IMG/VR virus record: IMGVR_UViG_3300022204_000006
Coordinates: 1-41,071 of that record
Strand: one strand, 5' to 3'
Length of the DNA: 41,071 bases
Origin: a virus
Shown here: positions 8,114-37,694 of the stretch, piece after piece
Layout of the letters: each line of letters opens with the position of its first letter
Position numbering within the stretch: position 1 is the stretch's first letter
The notes under the pieces: model-generated
Seen by the model: the letters and a program-made list of their open reading frames with translations, nothing else
Told to the model about the DNA's origin: nothing
The model's database searches: none
Program-made: the position numbers and the translations under genes

Positions 8114-8668
8114 CTATAATTGGTTAATTGCATCCTTGAGGCGGTCAGGGGTGCAATGTAGGTAAATGTCAGTAACACTAATGGAGCTGTGGCCTAGTAG
8201 GTCTCGCACAGCTTCTATGCTGATGTTTTTTTCAACTAAGGAAACGGCAAAGGTGTGACGTAGGGCGTGGGGGTGGATTCCTTTTTTTAGGTTGGCTCTT
8301 TGGCCTAGTTGGTTGATTAGCGACCGCAAACGGCGGAGGCTAATCCGTTTGTTGCGGTTACTGAGAAATAATGCTCCCGAATCTTGAAATAAACGGCCTG
8401 TTTTTTCAAGGTAATGTTCTATGGCTGCACCTACCTCTGGATGGAGGGGAATTAGACGCTGTTTGCCTCGTTTGGCAAAGCGGATGTCGATAGACATTTC
8501 TTGGGGGTCTATATCTTTGATGTCCAGCATCCGTAACTCGTTGCAACGCATACCGCCATAAAGGAAGGTGGTTATGATGGCTCGATTGCGGGGGGACATT
8601 TTAAGTTTTAGAAGTTTTTCACGCTCATTGCGTTTAAGCCAGCGTGGGAGTCGTTTGGCTTTAGCCAT
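8114..8668 (-). CDS. Minimal tyrosine recombinase (catalytic domain only)
   Basis: 184 aa. The catalytic set is complete: Arg41 in GGMRCNEL, a Lys in AKRGKQR (67 or 69), His134 and Arg137 in HPHALRHTF, His160 in LLGHSS and nucleophile Tyr169 in TDIYLH. The N-terminal SAM-like core-binding domain of XerC/D and phage integrases is absent. Such short recombinases often resolve dimers or act on simple inverted sites. It lies in the late operon, far from the full-length integrase at 20.7-21.8 kb. The ATG overlaps the previous stop as TAATG. Confidence 0.88.
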   Translation of the reverse strand: MAKAKRLPRWLKRNEREKLLKLKMSPRNRAIITTFLYGGMRCNELRMLDIKDIDPQEMSIDIRFAKRGKQRLIPLHPEVGAAIEHYLEKTGRLFQDSGALFLSNRNKRISLRRLRSLINQLGQRANLKKGIHPHALRHTFAVSLVEKNISIEAVRDLLGHSSISVTDIYLHCTPDRLKDAINQL

Positions 8669-11116: not shown

Positions 11117-11223
11117 TTTGGACTCCTGCTTTAATTTTTTTTAGCAACAATAGTAAAATTCTTACTGTTGTTATTTTTGTTTGTAATCTTATTTGTAGTC
11201 TATGTGTAATCTCTGGTATAGCT

Positions 11224-11349
11224 GGTTTAAAATTAAACCGTCCATGGTTTAATTTTAAACCGTCCATGGTTTAATTTTAAACCGTCCATGGTTTAATTTT
11301 AAACCATGCATGGTTTAATTTTAAACCATGCATGGTTTAATTTTAAACC
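11224..11349. repeat. Six tandem 22-bp iterons, putative replication origin
   Basis: Six 16-bp palindrome-like units start at 11224, 11246, 11268, 11290, 11312 and 11334, exactly 22 bases apart. The unit is GGTTTAATTTTAAACC (the first has AAAATT in the middle), joined by GTCCAT or ATGCAT. A period of 22 bp equals two helix turns and is typical of plasmid iterons bound by Rep. The same motif occurs at the promoter of the rep-like gene, at 12885 and 12958, suggesting that the initiator binds both. Confidence 0.85.
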
Positions 11350-11370
11350 ATGGGCCGTAAGGACGTAAAA

Positions 11371-11407
11371 ACGGGGTTATCCATTATTTTATTATGGATA
11401 ACCCCGT
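11371..11407. other. Strong hairpin next to iterons
   Basis: Perfect 14-bp stem ACGGGGTTATCCAT / ATGGATAACCCCGT with a 9-base AT-only loop. Each arm holds TTATCCAT, close to the DnaA box TTATCCACA. It lies 22 bases after the last iteron. It may be an origin element or a terminator; no T tract follows on the plus strand. Confidence 0.65.
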
Positions 11408-16510: not shown

Positions 16511-17275
16511 TTAGAAAAAACTGGTTTGGACACAATTTGTTGTTACCGGCAACGCCAGATTGTGTCCATTTAGTTTTGGCATAGCGTTCCAAGTTCTACC
16601 TTGTAGCTCTCGGCCTGTGCGTTTTTTTTGGGTGCCACCCCATTGTTTGAAGAAGAACGGCACATTTGCCGTTGCACATTGGTTTTTAATGTCGATGACC
16701 CATTCCTTTAAGATAAGTCTTGAGCCTGTCCCAGATTCGCCACCCACTATGACCCAATGTATGTTGGTAAGGTTTAGGTTTGGGAGCGGGCCTAGTAGTG
16801 GCTCTAGGGATAGGAATTTGATATGGGCATTGGTTTGGCGTAAATGGTCAACTCTAAAGGTATAGTCAGCGTTTTCAACACTAACGCCCATCCACACGTT
16901 GACGGGCCAAACGAGTTGGCCTGCTAACTGGAGTAGCCGCTCGGAGCGTTTGGTTAGGATTTGGAATTGATGCCAGTGGGCCCGTTGCATTACCCCAAAT
17001 ACTTTTTTAATGAAAACTAAGGAAATGTCTTGGTGGAATAGGTCGCTCATTGAGTTAACAAATATATTTCTCGGCTTTTTCCACCGTAGAGGAATATCTA
17101 AGGCGTTTTGGTGCAGGGCAATATCAAAGGCGTTGGTGTATTTTTTTACTCCCATTGCTTTTAGGCGTTTTGACATACGTTCTGCATAGCAGTTTTTACA
17201 GCCTGGGCTTATTTTGGTGCAACCTGTGGTGGGATTCCACGTTGCATCTGTCCATTCTATTGTTGAATCAGCCAT
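16511..17275 (-). CDS. DUF5131 (phage Gp37/Gp68-like) protein
   Basis: 254 aa. The N-terminus [20 protein letters not shown] then CKNCYAERM is the signature of this family, with a Cys cluster resembling a radical-SAM or metal site. The motifs [12 protein letters not shown] and GGESG follow in the expected order. The family is common in phages and mobile elements and its reaction is not established. The last 20 residues are encoded by a 40-bp palindromic element (16528-16567), so the original C-terminus may have been altered by its insertion. AAAGGA precedes the ATG. Confidence 0.85.
16528..16567. repeat. 40-bp palindromic element 1
   Basis: GGACACAAT / ATTGTGTCC arms with a 22-base centre containing TTACCGGCAA. 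It forms part of the C-terminal codons of the DUF5131 gene. Confidence 0.85.
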
Positions 17276-17562
17276 AATTTTTCCTTTGTTTTGGACACAA
17301 TTTGGGTGGCTGCGGCAGTTGTGATTGTGTCCAAAATTGTATCAATTATTAAATCGGCAAAGGCATCGGCACTATCAAAGGTTTCAATCTCTAGTGTTTT
17401 ATCGGTTAAATCAAACCATATATCTCTATTGATATGATTCTCAAACTCAGCCAACATTTTGTTTAATGGCTGTTGGATTCTGATATAGCCACCAAATTCT
17501 ATAGCCTCAAATTTGTAATAATCGTATTTCTTTACTAAATACTCTCTAGTTAGTGTTGTCAT
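17257..17562 (-). CDS. Small protein, unknown
   Basis: 101 aa from ATG 17562; ATG 17571 or a GTG inside the palindromic element upstream would add three to seven residues, and no ribosome site decides. The sequence is mixed alpha/beta with aromatic residues ([17 protein letters not shown]) and an acidic helix [17 protein letters not shown]. The C-terminal codons are built by the palindromic element 17293-17332. It overlaps the DUF5131 start by 19 bases. Confidence 0.5.
17293..17332. repeat. 40-bp palindromic element 2
   Basis: GGACACAAT / ATTGTGTCC with TGCGGCA in the centre. It is read in frame as the end of the 17257-17562 gene and lies just ahead of the DUF5131 ribosome site. Confidence 0.85.
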
Positions 17563-17577
17563 TATTATCATTTTCGT

Positions 17578-17617
17578 GGACACAATTTAGGTCACTGCGG
17601 CAGTTGAAATTGTGTCC
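17578..17617. repeat. 40-bp palindromic element 3
   Basis: The longest arms of the family, GGACACAATTT / AAATTGTGTCC (11 bp), with CACTGCGGCAGTTG in the centre. It lies between the SH3b gene stop and the next start. Confidence 0.88.
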
Positions 17618-20464: not shown

Positions 20465-20675
20465 TTTTCTTGATTAGTTTGCCTCGTTCTAAACGAACTG
20501 CCTTGGCAATGGTTAGTAGTGCTATCTCAGGGTCGCAGTTAACCAGGCTAACCAATTGGGTTGCTAGTGGTTGTTGTTTAACCTGTTTTGATACGTCAAC
20601 AGCGTTTTTAATTAGTATGTCTGTTGCTATTGGTAGATATTGTTTGATGAGTTGTTCTTCTTGCTTATAGGTCAT
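20424..20675 (-). CDS. Small helical protein, unknown
   Basis: 83 aa. The ATG overlaps the integrase stop as ATGA. The sequence is helical (QLIKQYLPIATDILIKNA) with a basic C-terminus (KKNETKRRPNHLQSK). It could be an accessory of the integrase by position only. The gene overlaps the next start by 41 bases. Confidence 0.55.
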   Translation of the reverse strand: MTYKQEEQLIKQYLPIATDILIKNAVDVSKQVKQQPLATQLVSLVNCDPEIALLTIAKAVRLERGKLIKKNETKRRPNHLQSK

Positions 20676-21769
20676 TTGTGTTGGTTTAACCTTCTAGTAT
20701 AAGGAATATGGATGCTTTGGGCCGCTCGGCGGGCGGCTTCGGCTGGCCTGCGGTCGTAGCGGGCGGTAGTTTGGATATTTTTGTGGCCTGCCAATTTAGC
20801 AACGATACTAATATCGTGTTGGTCGAGCAGGCTACTAATATAAGTTCGGCGGCAATCGTGGGGGGTAACGGGTTCAAGGCGGGCTTGTAATGCCCTTCTA
20901 TATAAGATGTCGTATACCCCTTGTGATGTGAGCCTGGTTAGTTTTATGTTTCCGCTTTTGTCTATCCGAATAAAAACGGCTTGGTAGTTGTTAATGGCTA
21001 TTAATTCATTCCGAAGCTGAAGCCAGTCGGCTAGGGCGGCATAAGCTCCACCCTCAACGGGTATTTCTCGCTTTTTATGGCCTTTGCCTTGGATAACAAG
21101 CAAGTGGTTGCCTTTGGTTAGGTTTTTTAAGTCAAGGGCAACTAATTCGGCTCGGCGGAGGCCACAGCCGATAAGCAAGGCAAAAATGGCAGCGTCTCTG
21201 GTGCCTTGGGGGCGGGAGTCGCTGGCACAAACATCAAACAAGTTGACTATTTCGCCAATAGATAAAGCACGGCCAGTTAGAAAGCTATTGCCTTTAACGC
21301 TTCTAACATCGGTTAGGCGGTGGTACTGGTCTGTATTTAATAATTCAAATCGCCAATATTCCTGCAATATGCCACGCAGTGCCGCTAACATTTTGTTGGC
21401 GGTGGCGGGGGCATATCGCTCGGTCAACGTTGCCTTGATGTAGCTCACTTCATGGCGTTGTAAGGTGTGCCAAGGAAATGTAGCTGGCTCGGCCACTTGG
21501 TTGCCGTTGCGGTCGAGGACACAATCGCAATGTACCTGGTCACTTGTTTTGTGTCCATTTCTAAGGCAAATAATCAGACCCGCCACCCTAGCCAATGCTC
21601 CTTCGATGGTTCGTCTTGAACCTGGTGCAAGGCTATCAAGGTATGTTTTTACTGGCGAAATTTCAAAAAAAACAGCCCCAAAAGATGATTTTAACTTTTG
21701 AGAATATACATTCTCATTACTTATTTCACCATCGGGTTTGTTTTTATCTGAGTTTTGATTATAATACAT
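20672..21769 (-). CDS. Full-length tyrosine integrase/recombinase
   Basis: 365 aa. The core-binding domain spans about residues 35-150 and the catalytic domain 165-345. The catalytic residues are Arg205 (GCGLRRAEL), Lys in GKGHKKREI (229-233), His304 and Arg307 (TPHDCRRTY), His329 (AGHKN) and Tyr338 (TARYDRR). It is expected to integrate or resolve the element. AAGGA lies six bases before the ATG. A 40-bp palindromic element (21517-21556) forms codons about 71-84, in frame. It follows a ribbon-helix-helix gene under a perfect promoter. Confidence 0.93.
   Translation of the reverse strand: MYYNQNSDKNKPDGEISNENVYSQKLKSSFGAVFFEISPVKTYLDSLAPGSRRTIEGALARVAGLIICLRNGHKTSDQVHCDCVLDRNGNQVAEPATFPWHTLQRHEVSYIKATLTERYAPATANKMLAALRGILQEYWRFELLNTDQYHRLTDVRSVKGNSFLTGRALSIGEIVNLFDVCASDSRPQGTRDAAIFALLIGCGLRRAELVALDLKNLTKGNHLLVIQGKGHKKREIPVEGGAYAALADWLQLRNELIAINNYQAVFIRIDKSGNIKLTRLTSQGVYDILYRRALQARLEPVTPHDCRRTYISSLLDQHDISIVAKLAGHKNIQTTARYDRRPAEAARRAAQSIHIPYTRRLNQHK
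21517..21556. repeat. 40-bp palindromic element 4, inside the integrase gene
   Basis: GGACACAAT / TTTTGTGTCC, 40 bases, fully inside the integrase reading frame and kept open. It shows that the element can insert in or evolve inside coding sequence. Confidence 0.8.
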
Positions 21770-22629: not shown

Positions 22630-22669
22630 GGACACAATTACGGTTACTGCGGCAACCATAATCGTGTCC
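22630..22669. repeat. 40-bp palindromic element 5
   Basis: Read on the minus strand it can pair along almost its full length: GGACACGATTATGGTT with AACCGTAATTGTGTCC, using two G-T pairs, around GCCGCAGT. It is therefore the best case for an RNA hairpin in the family. It lies between two minus-strand genes. Confidence 0.85.
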
Positions 22670-22682
22670 TTTTTTGATTTAT

Positions 22683-24830
22683 TTATTTATTTATTGCTTG
22701 TAAAAATTTCTCTCCATTGGTTGTTATTTTTTGGAGTTGCAATAGCTGTGCGGGAGTGGCATAGCTCATTATTTCGATTATTCTATCGAGGGTGGCTAGG
22801 TCACTATCATTTATCTTTAGTATTTGTTCTAAGAAAGCTTCTTGGGCGGGTTCTAGGTTTAGCGGCATTCGTCCACATTCTCCACAAGGTTCAGGGAGCC
22901 AAGGGTCGGGGACTATCTCATAAGCTAGTTTTCGGTTGTTGGTGTCCCAAATTTCTTGGATTGTTGGTTTTTTGGTTTCAGCTTCATTGGCTCTTTGGCC
23001 GGTGATGGTTTCAGTTTCTTTGCTAAATTCTGTTTTTGCCTCTCTAAATCTGCGGAGGTTTGACCATTCAAGCCCGCAGTCATTACATTTTAATCCGCCT
23101 CCCTCGCGGCGGTTGATGATGCCGTTGCAAAGGTGACATTTGAGGGGGTTGGGGGTTGGGGGTTGGGGGTTGGGTTGTGGCTCTGGCTTGGCTGGTTGCT
23201 GTAGCCAAGCATCTTTGCTCGATTCCTTTCCACACTTAGGACAAACAATTGGACGAGTAGGATTAAAGTCTCTTGTATAACCACATTTTGGGCAAGTACC
23301 GCTTACATATACGTTGGGTTTGTATTCTTCTTTGGGTTTAGGTTCGGTAAGCCACAGATTTGGCCTTGCTTGTCTATTGCATTGGTCGCAGGTGATGCTT
23401 ATTTCGCGATGCATTTCATCACCAGTGAATAGCCGTGAGTTGTTGCAGTTGGGACAATAACGGGTTTCTCGGTGTCTGGCTCTCGTCTTTTCTGCTTCTA
23501 TCTCGGCTTTGCAGTCCCTATAGTCACCAAGACCATGATATTTGGCGTTACAGGCTTCGCAGGTTATGAGGCTAATATGAAATGGGCCTTTGGTAAATAG
23601 TGCTTTTTTGTTGCAACGTAAACAGGGGAGGGCGGCAACTTCGGCTTTGAGTTGTTTTAGTTCGTAGTTTTCTTTTAAGGCTTGTCTGACTCTTTCATCT
23701 GCTTGGCTGGTGGAAAGACCATTAAAGGCAATATAACAACCTAATTCAATGCAATCTTGTTCTAATGGTGGTTCCTCTTTCATTAACCGAACTAGATGGC
23801 GACCACTTTGCTGTGCCAATTGACCTTTAGCAATTAATTCCTGTATGTCAAGCGGGAGTTTAAGTAAGTCAGTTAAATTTTTGGCAGCACTTTTCTTGAG
23901 GCCGTGAACTTTACCTGCTTCTTCATAGGTCCATCCAAACGCTTCTCGACCTTGTTCAATCGATTTGGCTCGCTCGATGGCGTTGAGGTTTACCCGTTGG
24001 TCGTTTTCTATGGTGGCTGTTTTATACATTTCTTCATCAGTCATCTGCACTAGTTTAATTGGCATTGCGGCCCAAGTATCCCATTCATCGCCGTGAAATT
24101 TATCATTGTACTTGAAGGCGGCTAGGCGGCGATGTCCAAAGGCTAGTTGTACTCGACCATCACTGCCGGGGCGGGCTACTGGTACTTGAAGCAAACCCAA
24201 CGTATTTGGCAAGGTTTTTTTCTGTAGACGGATGGAGCGGGCTAGTTTTTGGGTCTCTACCGGGTTTAGCTCTAAGCGGGGTTGGTAGGGATTTTGGTCG
24301 ATTAGGTCAAGGGGAACTAGGCTTAACCCTTGGTCGGTGGGGTATTCCTGGAATACTTTTTGAGTAGGGGCGGGCGGCTCGGCTGGTGGCTGTGGCTCTG
24401 GCTCTACCTGCCCTAGTTGGGATTTTAGCCAAGCTTGTTGCTGGCCTATGCCTAAGTTGGCTAGTGGGATTTCTACGGTGTAGCCCGCTTGGGTTAATAA
24501 GTCGGTTAGAAATTCGCGGTAAGGCAACCCAGCTAAGATTACTATTTTTGCACTGGGTTCTAGTTTGCTCTGGATAGAAGCAAAGACTTGATTAGCCCAT
24601 TCTTGGCGGTTGGTTCGTGTCATTCGTTTTAATGTGGCCTCGTAAGGCTTAATAACTTGGCTCGGTGGTATTAAACCGTGTTTGGCCGATAAGATAAACC
24701 ACTGGTGGCCTGATTGCTCGGCGTAGGCTCTGGCTAAGGTAAACCAAGTCGAGGTATATAGCTCGGCGGCGGGGGCTGCTTCCTTTTTCTTCTTTCCAAC
24801 ACAAGATACTAAAATAATTTGTTTTTGCAT
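22683..24830 (-). CDS. DUF6884-ParB-zinc ribbon fusion protein
   Basis: 715 aa from ATG 24830, six bases after TGGAG. Residues 1-140 match DUF6884: QIILVSCVGKKKKEAAPAAE, LYTSTWFTLARAYAEQ and WFILSAKHGLIPP. Residues about 165-385 are a ParB/Srx-like domain with VPLDLIDQNPYQPRL, the box-II-like AFGHRRLAAF and an HTH region (TYEEAGKVHGLKKSAAKNL). At least four CxxC pairs follow (CLRC/CEAC, CPNC/CDQC, CPKC/CPKC, CHLC/CNDC) plus CGEC, forming serial zinc ribbons. No ParA is encoded in the window. A ParB-type DNA clamp with several zinc ribbons is unusual. The encoded Pro-rich segment contains a 7-bp DNA repeat. Confidence 0.85.
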   Translation of the reverse strand: MQKQIILVSCVGKKKKEAAPAAELYTSTWFTLARAYAEQSGHQWFILSAKHGLIPPSQVIKPYEATLKRMTRTNRQEWANQVFASIQSKLEPSAKIVILAGLPYREFLTDLLTQAGYTVEIPLANLGIGQQQAWLKSQLGQVEPEPQPPAEPPAPTQKVFQEYPTDQGLSLVPLDLIDQNPYQPRLELNPVETQKLARSIRLQKKTLPNTLGLLQVPVARPGSDGRVQLAFGHRRLAAFKYNDKFHGDEWDTWAAMPIKLVQMTDEEMYKTATIENDQRVNLNAIERAKSIEQGREAFGWTYEEAGKVHGLKKSAAKNLTDLLKLPLDIQELIAKGQLAQQSGRHLVRLMKEEPPLEQDCIELGCYIAFNGLSTSQADERVRQALKENYELKQLKAEVAALPCLRCNKKALFTKGPFHISLITCEACNAKYHGLGDYRDCKAEIEAEKTRARHRETRYCPNCNNSRLFTGDEMHREISITCDQCNRQARPNLWLTEPKPKEEYKPNVYVSGTCPKCGYTRDFNPTRPIVCPKCGKESSKDAWLQQPAKPEPQPNPQPPTPNPLKCHLCNGIINRREGGGLKCNDCGLEWSNLRRFREAKTEFSKETETITGQRANEAETKKPTIQEIWDTNNRKLAYEIVPDPWLPEPCGECGRMPLNLEPAQEAFLEQILKINDSDLATLDRIIEIMSYATPAQLLQLQKITTNGEKFLQAINK
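23144..23171. repeat. Four GGGGGTT heptamers inside the ParB-fusion gene
   Basis: Four perfect 7-bp units in tandem encode a Pro/Asn/Thr-rich linker on the minus strand. Heptamer repeats of this kind expand by slippage and are scattered in the window with other sequences (TTAATGG, GGTGGAT). Confidence 0.85.
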
Positions 24831-24855
24831 GATAATCTCCATTTGTTGCTAATCA

Positions 24856-24900
24856 GCCCGTATGTGGCCTAACGGCGTAAGCTGTAGGCCGCATACGGGC
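24856..24900. other. Strong intergenic hairpin
   Basis: 16-bp stem GCCCGTATGTGGCCTA / TAGGCCGCATACGGGC with one G-T pair and a 13-base loop. It fills the gap between the ParB-fusion start and the next stop. It may be an mRNA stabiliser, attenuator or protein-binding site. Confidence 0.75.
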
Positions 24901-25292: not shown

Positions 25293-25332
25293 GGACACAA
25301 AACGCTTATGCCGGTGCAAGTATTTTGTGTCC
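25293..25332. repeat. 40-bp palindromic element 6
   Basis: GGACACAAAA / TTTTGTGTCC with CGCTTATGCCGGTGCAAGTA as the centre. It lies immediately before the stop of the 25337-25771 gene and after the hairpin at 25251. Confidence 0.88.
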
Positions 25333-26488: not shown

Positions 26489-26517
26489 ATTATAGTACAA
26501 AAGACACAATTTAGCAA
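26489..26517 (-). promoter_or_regulatory. Promoter of SWIM gene, overlapped by palindromic element 7
   Basis: Read on the minus strand: TTGCTA, 17 bases, TATAAT. The palindromic element 26502-26540 covers the -35 and part of the spacer. This is the clearest sign that the 40-bp elements are operators. Confidence 0.65.
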
Positions 26518-26540
26518 GCATGACACCCTAAATTGTGTCT
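26502..26540. repeat. 39-bp palindromic element 7
   Basis: AGACACAATTTAG / CTAAATTGTGTCT, 13-bp arms, centre CAAGCATGACACC. Compared with the others the first and last bases are changed together (A/T instead of G/C), which keeps the pairing. Confidence 0.88.
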
Positions 26541-27334
26541 TTTTTTGTGTTAATCAGGGTATTTTCTGGCGTATTTAATAGTAAAGCCAGTATTTCACCC
26601 ACTTTGCTTGTGGCCTTCATGATGGCGGTTAGGGGGTCGGCGTTGTAATGGGAGATGTATTTCCAAGCGTTGCCAGTGTGGTCGCGTAACCCGTATAACT
26701 CCATCAAAACTGCGGCGGATAGCTCGGCGATGGTTTCTTGGCTTGCATTCTCCCCCCTTTTCAATTGGCCGTCTACTTTTTTATGGGCGGCGTGGGCCAG
26801 TTCGTGGAACCAAATCGCTTCCTCTTTTGTGCCTAATCGTATCCGTTCCAAACTCGGCGTATAATCTCCTAAACGGTCAGCAGGTACGGGGCAATATTTT
26901 ACATCAATCCCCATTTTGGCGGCTACGTCTGCTAAGGGGGGGAGCGTGGCGGGGGTGTAACTTGGTAGGGGGTCTCCCTCGGTGTCCTCAATGGAAAAAA
27001 CGGGGGTAGCCTTAAAACCTGTACAAATATGTTTTTCTTTGCCATTTTCATCTTCAACTTTGAAGGTAAGGGGGCTAAAAATAAAAATAGCCTTTGCTCC
27101 TTTTTTAACCTGACGTTTTACTTTTTGCCATTGGCGGTAACCTCGGTTGTCTAGTTGCTCGCTTTGGGTAAAGGCCAAAATTTGATTACCGAATGACCAA
27201 CTAGCGGCGGGGGCGTTTGGGTCTAATTGAAAAGCCAACACATTTACAAAAGCCGATAAATTGTTAGATTTGAATTTTTGTATAACAACGTCCAAGGCGG
27301 CTTGGGCCTTGTCTGACAATTTTCTTGTACTCAT
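26528..27334 (-). CDS. ardC: ArdC-like antirestriction protein with metallopeptidase motif
   Basis: 268 aa. Residues 1-110 form an ArdC N-terminal ssDNA-binding type domain with WSFGNQILAF, then GYRQWQKVKRQVKKGAKAIF. The C-terminal domain has HELAH (177-181), an M78/gluzincin zinc motif, and a downstream Glu in ETIAELSAAVLM. ArdC proteins protect incoming plasmid DNA from restriction. AAGGAG lies upstream of ATG. Its C-terminal codons overlap palindromic element 7. Confidence 0.88.
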   Translation of the reverse strand: MSTRKLSDKAQAALDVVIQKFKSNNLSAFVNVLAFQLDPNAPAASWSFGNQILAFTQSEQLDNRGYRQWQKVKRQVKKGAKAIFIFSPLTFKVEDENGKEKHICTGFKATPVFSIEDTEGDPLPSYTPATLPPLADVAAKMGIDVKYCPVPADRLGDYTPSLERIRLGTKEEAIWFHELAHAAHKKVDGQLKRGENASQETIAELSAAVLMELYGLRDHTGNAWKYISHYNADPLTAIMKATSKVGEILALLLNTPENTLINTKKDTI

Positions 27335-37655: not shown

Positions 37656-37694
37656 GGACACAAAATGAATGGCTGCCAAAGGTATTTTGTGTCC
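37656..37694. repeat. 39-bp palindromic element 8
   Basis: GGACACAAAAT / ATTTTGTGTCC, 11-bp arms, centre GAATGGCTGCCAAAGGT. It is the only family member outside 16.5-26.6 kb, between the tail chaperone stop and the tape measure start. Confidence 0.85.

Follow-up and report, generated by a model that had tools for sequence, protein, structure and literature searches.

A phage protein joining a DUF6884 domain, a ParB-type region and serial putative zinc ribbons in one reading frame

Orphan phage proteins in which a ParB-CTPase fold is fused to DNA methyltransferases or to domains of unknown function have already been surveyed (PMC12704722). DUF6884 has been given as a domain of DpdC (PMC11888242), and the Dpd system also has a ParB-fold partner, DpdB (PMC12839542), which has been described as DndB-like (PMC11888242). 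The CxxxK and LSAxxG motifs of DUF6884 have been named (PMC11701544), and the Pfam authors relate the domain to YaaA (DUF328). Vibrio phage nt-1 encodes ArcS and contains dG+, dPreQ0 and dADG in its DNA (PMC6884629).

The window analysed here, the whole 41,071 nucleotides of IMG/VR virus record IMGVR_UViG_3300022204_000006, has a gene for a protein with DUF6884, ParB_N, HTH_ParB, four full CxxC…CxxC ribbons plus a CxxC that has no partner (Table 1). Like the orphan fusions of PMC12704722, where the GxxR motif is described, this protein is phage-encoded, has GxxR, lacks a ParA and carries extra domains; it differs from them in keeping the ParB HTH and in having four putative zinc ribbons. In the main texts of the full-text literature DUF6884 occurs in two papers and together with ParB in none, and the main text of PMC12704722 does not name DUF6884. 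The parts and orphan ParB-fold fusions are known; the combination with DUF6884 has been encountered once, in this phage.

Read from the first ATG, the open reading frame spans 22683-24842 on the minus strand and encodes 719 aa. An inner ATG at 24830 has a GGAG six bases upstream (24840-24837), and because of this good spacing the 715-aa protein is the likelier product; residue numbers follow it unless 719 is stated. The earlier note had described a single 715-aa protein with DUF6884, ParB and at least four CxxC pairs, and Pfam, NCBIfam and the CxxC counts agree, the Pfam matches to DUF6884, HTH_ParB and ParB_N all lying above their cut-offs. No in-frame ATG, GTG or TTG occurs at residues 102-207, which leaves no room for a separate ParB start in that stretch, and the fusion is genuine. 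The joining of DUF6884, ParB and ribbons in one protein is thus confirmed. That an assembly or annotation artefact has fused two genes is highly improbable: the fusion is present in one contig and domain searches gave no second example, but the linker is proline-rich and natural-looking, a start codon is absent near the ParB edge, GC and GC3 are broadly alike across the domains and a good ribosome-binding site precedes DUF6884.

Table 1. Features of the fusion gene and candidate binding sites in the window
Feature	Position	Strand	Basis
DUF6884-ParB-multi-ribbon gene, 715 aa	22683..24830	-	Pfam and NCBIfam profiles, ORF reading
Stem-loop immediately 5' of the fusion gene	24856..24900	-	z -3.96, strong
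DUF6884 domain, residues 5-136, YaaA/DpdC-like alpha/beta fold	24423..24818	-	Pfam 1.1e-48
CxxxK motif C10-K14, putative nucleophile and lysine	24789..24803	-	invariant in 27 aligned DUF6884 sequences
LSAxxG motif, residues 47-52	24675..24692	-	alignment; S48, A49, G52 invariant (27 sequences)
Pro/Glu-rich linker, DUF6884 to ParB, without in-frame start codon	24333..24404	-	
ParB_N, ParB-CTPase fold	24003..24326	-	Pfam 4.6e-6, 27.0 bits against a cut-off of 26.3 (barely over)
GxxR phosphate motif (Box II), here GHRR	24126..24137	-	alignment
HTH_ParB DNA-binding domain	23679..23990	-	Pfam 2.1e-14
Putative zinc ribbon 1, CxxC-17-CxxC (403/424)	23550..23624	-	
Putative zinc ribbon 2, CxxC-18-CxxC (459/481), resembles ribbon 1	23379..23456	-	
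Putative zinc ribbon 3, CxxC-13-CxxC (513/530)	23232..23294	-	
Putative zinc ribbon 4, CxxC-13-CxxC (565/582)	23076..23138	-	
Lone CxxC (649) ahead of helical C-terminus	22875..22886	-	
Dyads	16528-16567, 17293-17332, 17578-17617, 21517-21556, 22630-22669, 25293-25332, 37656-37694	.	pattern search
Dyad GGACACAA-N24-TCGTGTCC, just 3' of the fusion gene, candidate binding site	22630..22669	.	
Dyad upstream of the fusion gene, candidate binding site	25293..25332	.	

The DUF6884 domain (PF21818) scores 165.3 bits against a Pfam cut-off of 30, and the AlphaFold model of this part has a pLDDT of 94.5. Invariant in the 27 aligned sequences are C10, K14, Y25, F30, I46, S48, A49, G52, Y63, Y104, P122, G129 and Q131. 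The link to YaaA proposed in the earlier note holds, with YaaA as the closest fold to the model (5caj; Z 9.9, 139 aligned residues, 3.5 A), followed by AF0587 (2q07; Z 9.2, 117 aligned residues, 3.4 A), while the next row has Z 6.7. Foldseek against the PDB gave nothing at 0.001, its top rows being common alpha/beta folds. YaaA and YfjM are described without a ParB partner, unlike the domain in the fusion.

In sequence, the second fold match is related to the nt-1 DUF5591 protein (3.3e-8), and a Cx3(K/R)PY motif is common to both. From its position in the cluster, the nt-1 DUF5591 protein would be the ArcS of PMC6884629. By model comparison the DUF6884 of the fusion thus has a fold in common with ArcS/DUF5591, plus a Cx3K-type motif, but a sequence-profile match is lacking: hhalign of the DUF6884 profile against the single nt-1 ArcS sequence gave nothing (probability 0.1). 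The DUF5591 profile has no match within the phage record. Because the hhalign comparison failed, it is fold, motif and gene order that link DUF6884 to ArcS. The PADLOC models for DpdC match the domain at 2.5e-5, over 61 residues only (17-77 in the 719 numbering), and the PADLOC candidate defence family PDC-M57A matches it at 1.5e-39.

Other loci join DUF6884 to DpdA-type transglycosylases or place it next to them. Both are encoded in one ORF in L130, in L133/L134/L135 (counted as one lineage) and in L144, where the NCBIfam DpdA model matches the fused TGTs down to 2.2e-26, yet under its cut-off. These proteins likewise join DUF6884 to a DNA-targeting module, but their partner is a transglycosylase whereas in the phage fusion protein it is ParB. 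DUF6884 adjoins a DpdA-type TGT in L149, L242 and phage phiFN37, and the gene row FolE-DUF6884-TGT-QueC of L149 (4369-7410 of a 39.6-kb viral contig) is parallel to the ArcS-FolE-DpdA2-QueC order in the nt-1 cluster. Among 78 DUF6884 viral records, 50 were examined, of which 6 have a Pfam TGT match and 44 have none; this suggests that the role of the family is wider than 7-deazaguanine. The phage itself differs from the Dpd system in that DpdA was not found in its record, and its ParB is Noc/KorB-like whereas DpdB is DndB-like. Neither Pfam nor a custom DpdA-like HMM detected a TGT in the record, and no preQ0 genes were among the 25 of 35 Pfam families listed for it. Judged by gene content, the phage is therefore probably unable to insert preQ0 by itself. 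Synthesis of 7-deazaguanine in cis was set aside, with no TGT and the expected families absent among those listed.

The ParB part is also matched by NCBIfam TIGR00180 (parB_part, ParB/RepB/Spo0J; 1.1e-21, 77.4 bits against a cut-off of 58.45). The AlphaFold model of ParB and tail has a pLDDT of 75.3, with the tail at low confidence, and its ParB part matches Noc, KorB and ParB structures at Z 12-15. At its C motif the ParB domain contains 8 inserted residues, and the nucleotide binding of ParB folds is unpredictable from sequence (PMC12704722). The absence of ParA reported in the earlier note is borne out, in that AAA_31 was found in none of 26 records, the phage record included, and the ParA-binding motif is absent from the fusion protein. 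Pfam ParB_C, the dimerisation domain, has no match in the fusion, and the helical C-terminus is modelled at low confidence.

Related phage ParBs (L016-L049, L270-L312) have a LAFGH(S/R)RLAA box and are at most 43% identical over ParB_N and HTH_ParB. Genes near them encode SSB, DnaB, HTH proteins, terminase and two actin-like proteins (67 neighbours of 124). Like the fusion, most of them carry a putative metal-binding Cys4 module after the HTH; theirs has the form CxxC-x-CxxxxC(Y/W/H/F)xxK, with an aromatic residue or His and then Lys in most. The module is present in 41 of the 45 distinct LAFGH-box ParBs with tails of at least 60 residues, where shuffling expects 0.12, and in 3 of 86 other ParBs; counted with another duplicate key, with no length limit and with the copy from the window included, it is present in 41 of 50. 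DUF6884 occurs in no fetched member, and where these ParBs have the CxxC-x-CxxxxC form, the fusion has four tandem CxxC/CxxC ribbons. Nine CxxC motifs lie in the 319-aa tail of the fusion, and none of 20,000 shuffled tails has as many. Every match of a Pfam zinc family to this tail is under its cut-off, and the ribbons are putative, assigned by paired CxxC. The earlier note had set the serial zinc ribbons against the dimerisation domain in which known ParBs end. This argument is weakened, since LAFGH phage ParBs as a rule carry a Cys4 module behind the HTH, and it is the number and type of ribbons that are unusual. Going by their sequences, a ParA-less and probably zinc-bearing ParB is ordinary in this group; what is odd in the fusion is DUF6884 and the serial four-ribbon form.

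Scans with the whole protein found no relative in viral and genome collections, but these used single-sequence patterns, which are poor, and domain-wise alignments were used in their place. No ParB fusion was found among 78 DUF6884 viral loci and 8 further DUF6884 ORFs, and no DUF6884 fusion among 25 ParB-bearing records and the fetched ParB loci. DUF6884 occurs in 39 of 400 Chloroflexota genomes, with ORFs of at most 455 aa among the 50 matches listed, and a custom ParB HMM found none in 30 fetched Chloroflexota DUF6884 loci. Among the collections searched, DUF6884 and ParB in one ORF is therefore a single instance. One protein from a Chloroflexota genome (L216, 574-1935) has an N-terminal DUF6884 followed by an unassigned C-terminal region with two CxxC motifs at its end.

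The record is classed as linear in IMG/VR. At its left end it has terminase, portal, protease and capsid genes, and at its right end genes for connector, head completion and tail; every one of these genes is on the minus strand. Because head genes wrap around both ends, the record is probably a near-complete, circularly permuted genome of a siphophage-like virus. Two integrase-like ORFs are present, a short one of 184 aa (8114-8668) and another at 20672-21769. Upstream of the fusion gene, 26528-27334 encodes a weak ArdC/anti-restriction-like protein (PHROG 1.7e-11, Pfam ArdcN barely under cut-off). Dense nested inverted repeats of CATGGTTTAATTTTAAACC units at 11223-11407 may be an origin or an operator array, and Rfam had no match in the window. 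Relatives of the ParB are found in Chloroflexota genomes (Oscillochloris, Anaerolineaceae, Ardenticatenia) and in other phyla too. For the terminase, 7 of 400 Chloroflexota genomes have a match with E <= 1e-60, of which the top one is 45% identical, and in genome G078 a ParB match and a terminase match are both on contig C71. These relatives, matches and co-location make Chloroflexota a plausible host.

GGACACAA or GGACACGA occurs fourteen times in the window, and these copies make up seven inverted pairs, the dyads of Table 1, in which arm starts are 32 bp apart in six and 31 bp in one. Their form is GGACACAA-N24-TTGTGTCC, 40 bp in length. Two of them flank the fusion gene, one on each side, and a degenerate eighth copy lies at about 26501-26541. 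With a looser search there were 16 matches where 5.75 are expected. Of the seven dyads, six overlap a minus-strand ORF start or lie 18-114 bp upstream of one, which is equalled in 5 of 20,000 random placements, and they look like the operators of a regulon. Since 26 other viral contigs have the pattern once each, a set of seven copies seems particular to this phage. The ParB of the fusion may bind these dyads. A DUF5131 protein (16511-17275, 1.4e-99) sits between two dyads and resembles radical SAM mobile pair protein A, under the cut-off of that model.

The reading that we tentatively prefer is an orphan phage ParB-type clamp whose N-terminal DpdC/ArcS-like DUF6884 enzyme tailors or inspects bases. 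The HTH would recognise particular sites in phage (or host) DNA, and an NTP, probably CTP, would shut the ParB domains around DNA and lead to spreading, while the zinc ribbons would add non-specific contacts to DNA or to partners. The tethered DUF6884, with its invariant Cys10 and Lys14, would act on flipped bases, either by tailoring a nitrile-bearing 7-deazaguanine placed in DNA by host enzymes or by inspecting or processing another abnormal base. The similarity to DpdC, the DpdA-DUF6884 fusions and the ArcS-like fold support this clamp-guided base enzyme. Since the record has no recognisable maker or inserter of preQ0, either the host would supply the modified base, as has been suggested for Halovirus HVTV-1 (PMC6884629), or DUF6884 would act on another base or lesion, as has been proposed for YfjM (PMC11701544). 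For the fusion protein, NTP binding, clamping and catalysis are predictions, as are its substrate and any function of the dyads. A DNA-bound enzyme possibly active in DNA modification, as the earlier note had suggested, is the best-supported reading, strengthened by the same three lines of evidence and weakened by the failure to find TGT and preQ0 genes; a counter-defence role is possible. More doubtful is the specific form in which a CTP-gated sliding clamp loads at dispersed sites and carries the DpdC/ArcS-like active site, so that modification, or removal of host modification, would be confined to the spreading zone and need no recognition sequence.

Three other functions have to be weighed against a clamp-guided base enzyme. 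The protein could instead be a transcription regulator like KorB, with the ParB clamp silencing or activating operons from the dispersed 40-bp dyads and DUF6884 as a non-catalytic accessory for binding or sensing. The fixed spacing and the position of the dyads at ORF starts are consistent with such a regulator, as are the lack of ParA and the presence of KorB structures among the best matches (Z 14.9). However, nothing ties the dyads to the fusion protein, the window also has GerE, HTH_24 and Sigma70_r4, and the invariant Cys and Lys favour catalysis. Known ParB operators are also far from half-sites 32 bp apart, and a regulator of this kind is rather unlikely, if still a serious candidate. 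A repair factor or lesion scanner, with a DUF6884 that detects abasic or RNA-base lesions and a clamp that enriches it on phage DNA, is unlikely. It agrees with YaaA as the best fold match, with the lack of a TGT match in most of the DUF6884 viral records examined, and with the B. subtilis protein YfjM, which is among the interactors of abasic and ribonucleotide lesions and has an AlphaFold3 base-flipping model (PMC11701544); on the other hand, the recurrent DpdA fusions and neighbourhoods point to a modified guanine, and a repair gene was not recognised beside the fusion gene. Partition without ParA, also raised in the earlier note, gained no positive evidence as a function of this protein. 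A partition protein of a plasmid-like prophage would fit the HTH_ParB and TIGR00180 matches and the actin-like genes (ALP_N) near related phage ParBs, but it is improbable given the missing AAA_31, ParA motif and ParB_C and the integrase genes, with which the phage need not segregate as a plasmid. Classical partition was set aside, as the ParA gene and the ParA-binding motif are both absent.

If the clamp guides the enzyme, this would be a new way to place DNA modification, by nucleotide-gated spreading as opposed to a fixed sequence motif. DUF6884 is widespread in phages and bacteria, and the fusion offers a tractable single polypeptide for the study of its function. The links of the domain to DpdA, FolE and QueC make a role in 7-deazaguanine directly testable.
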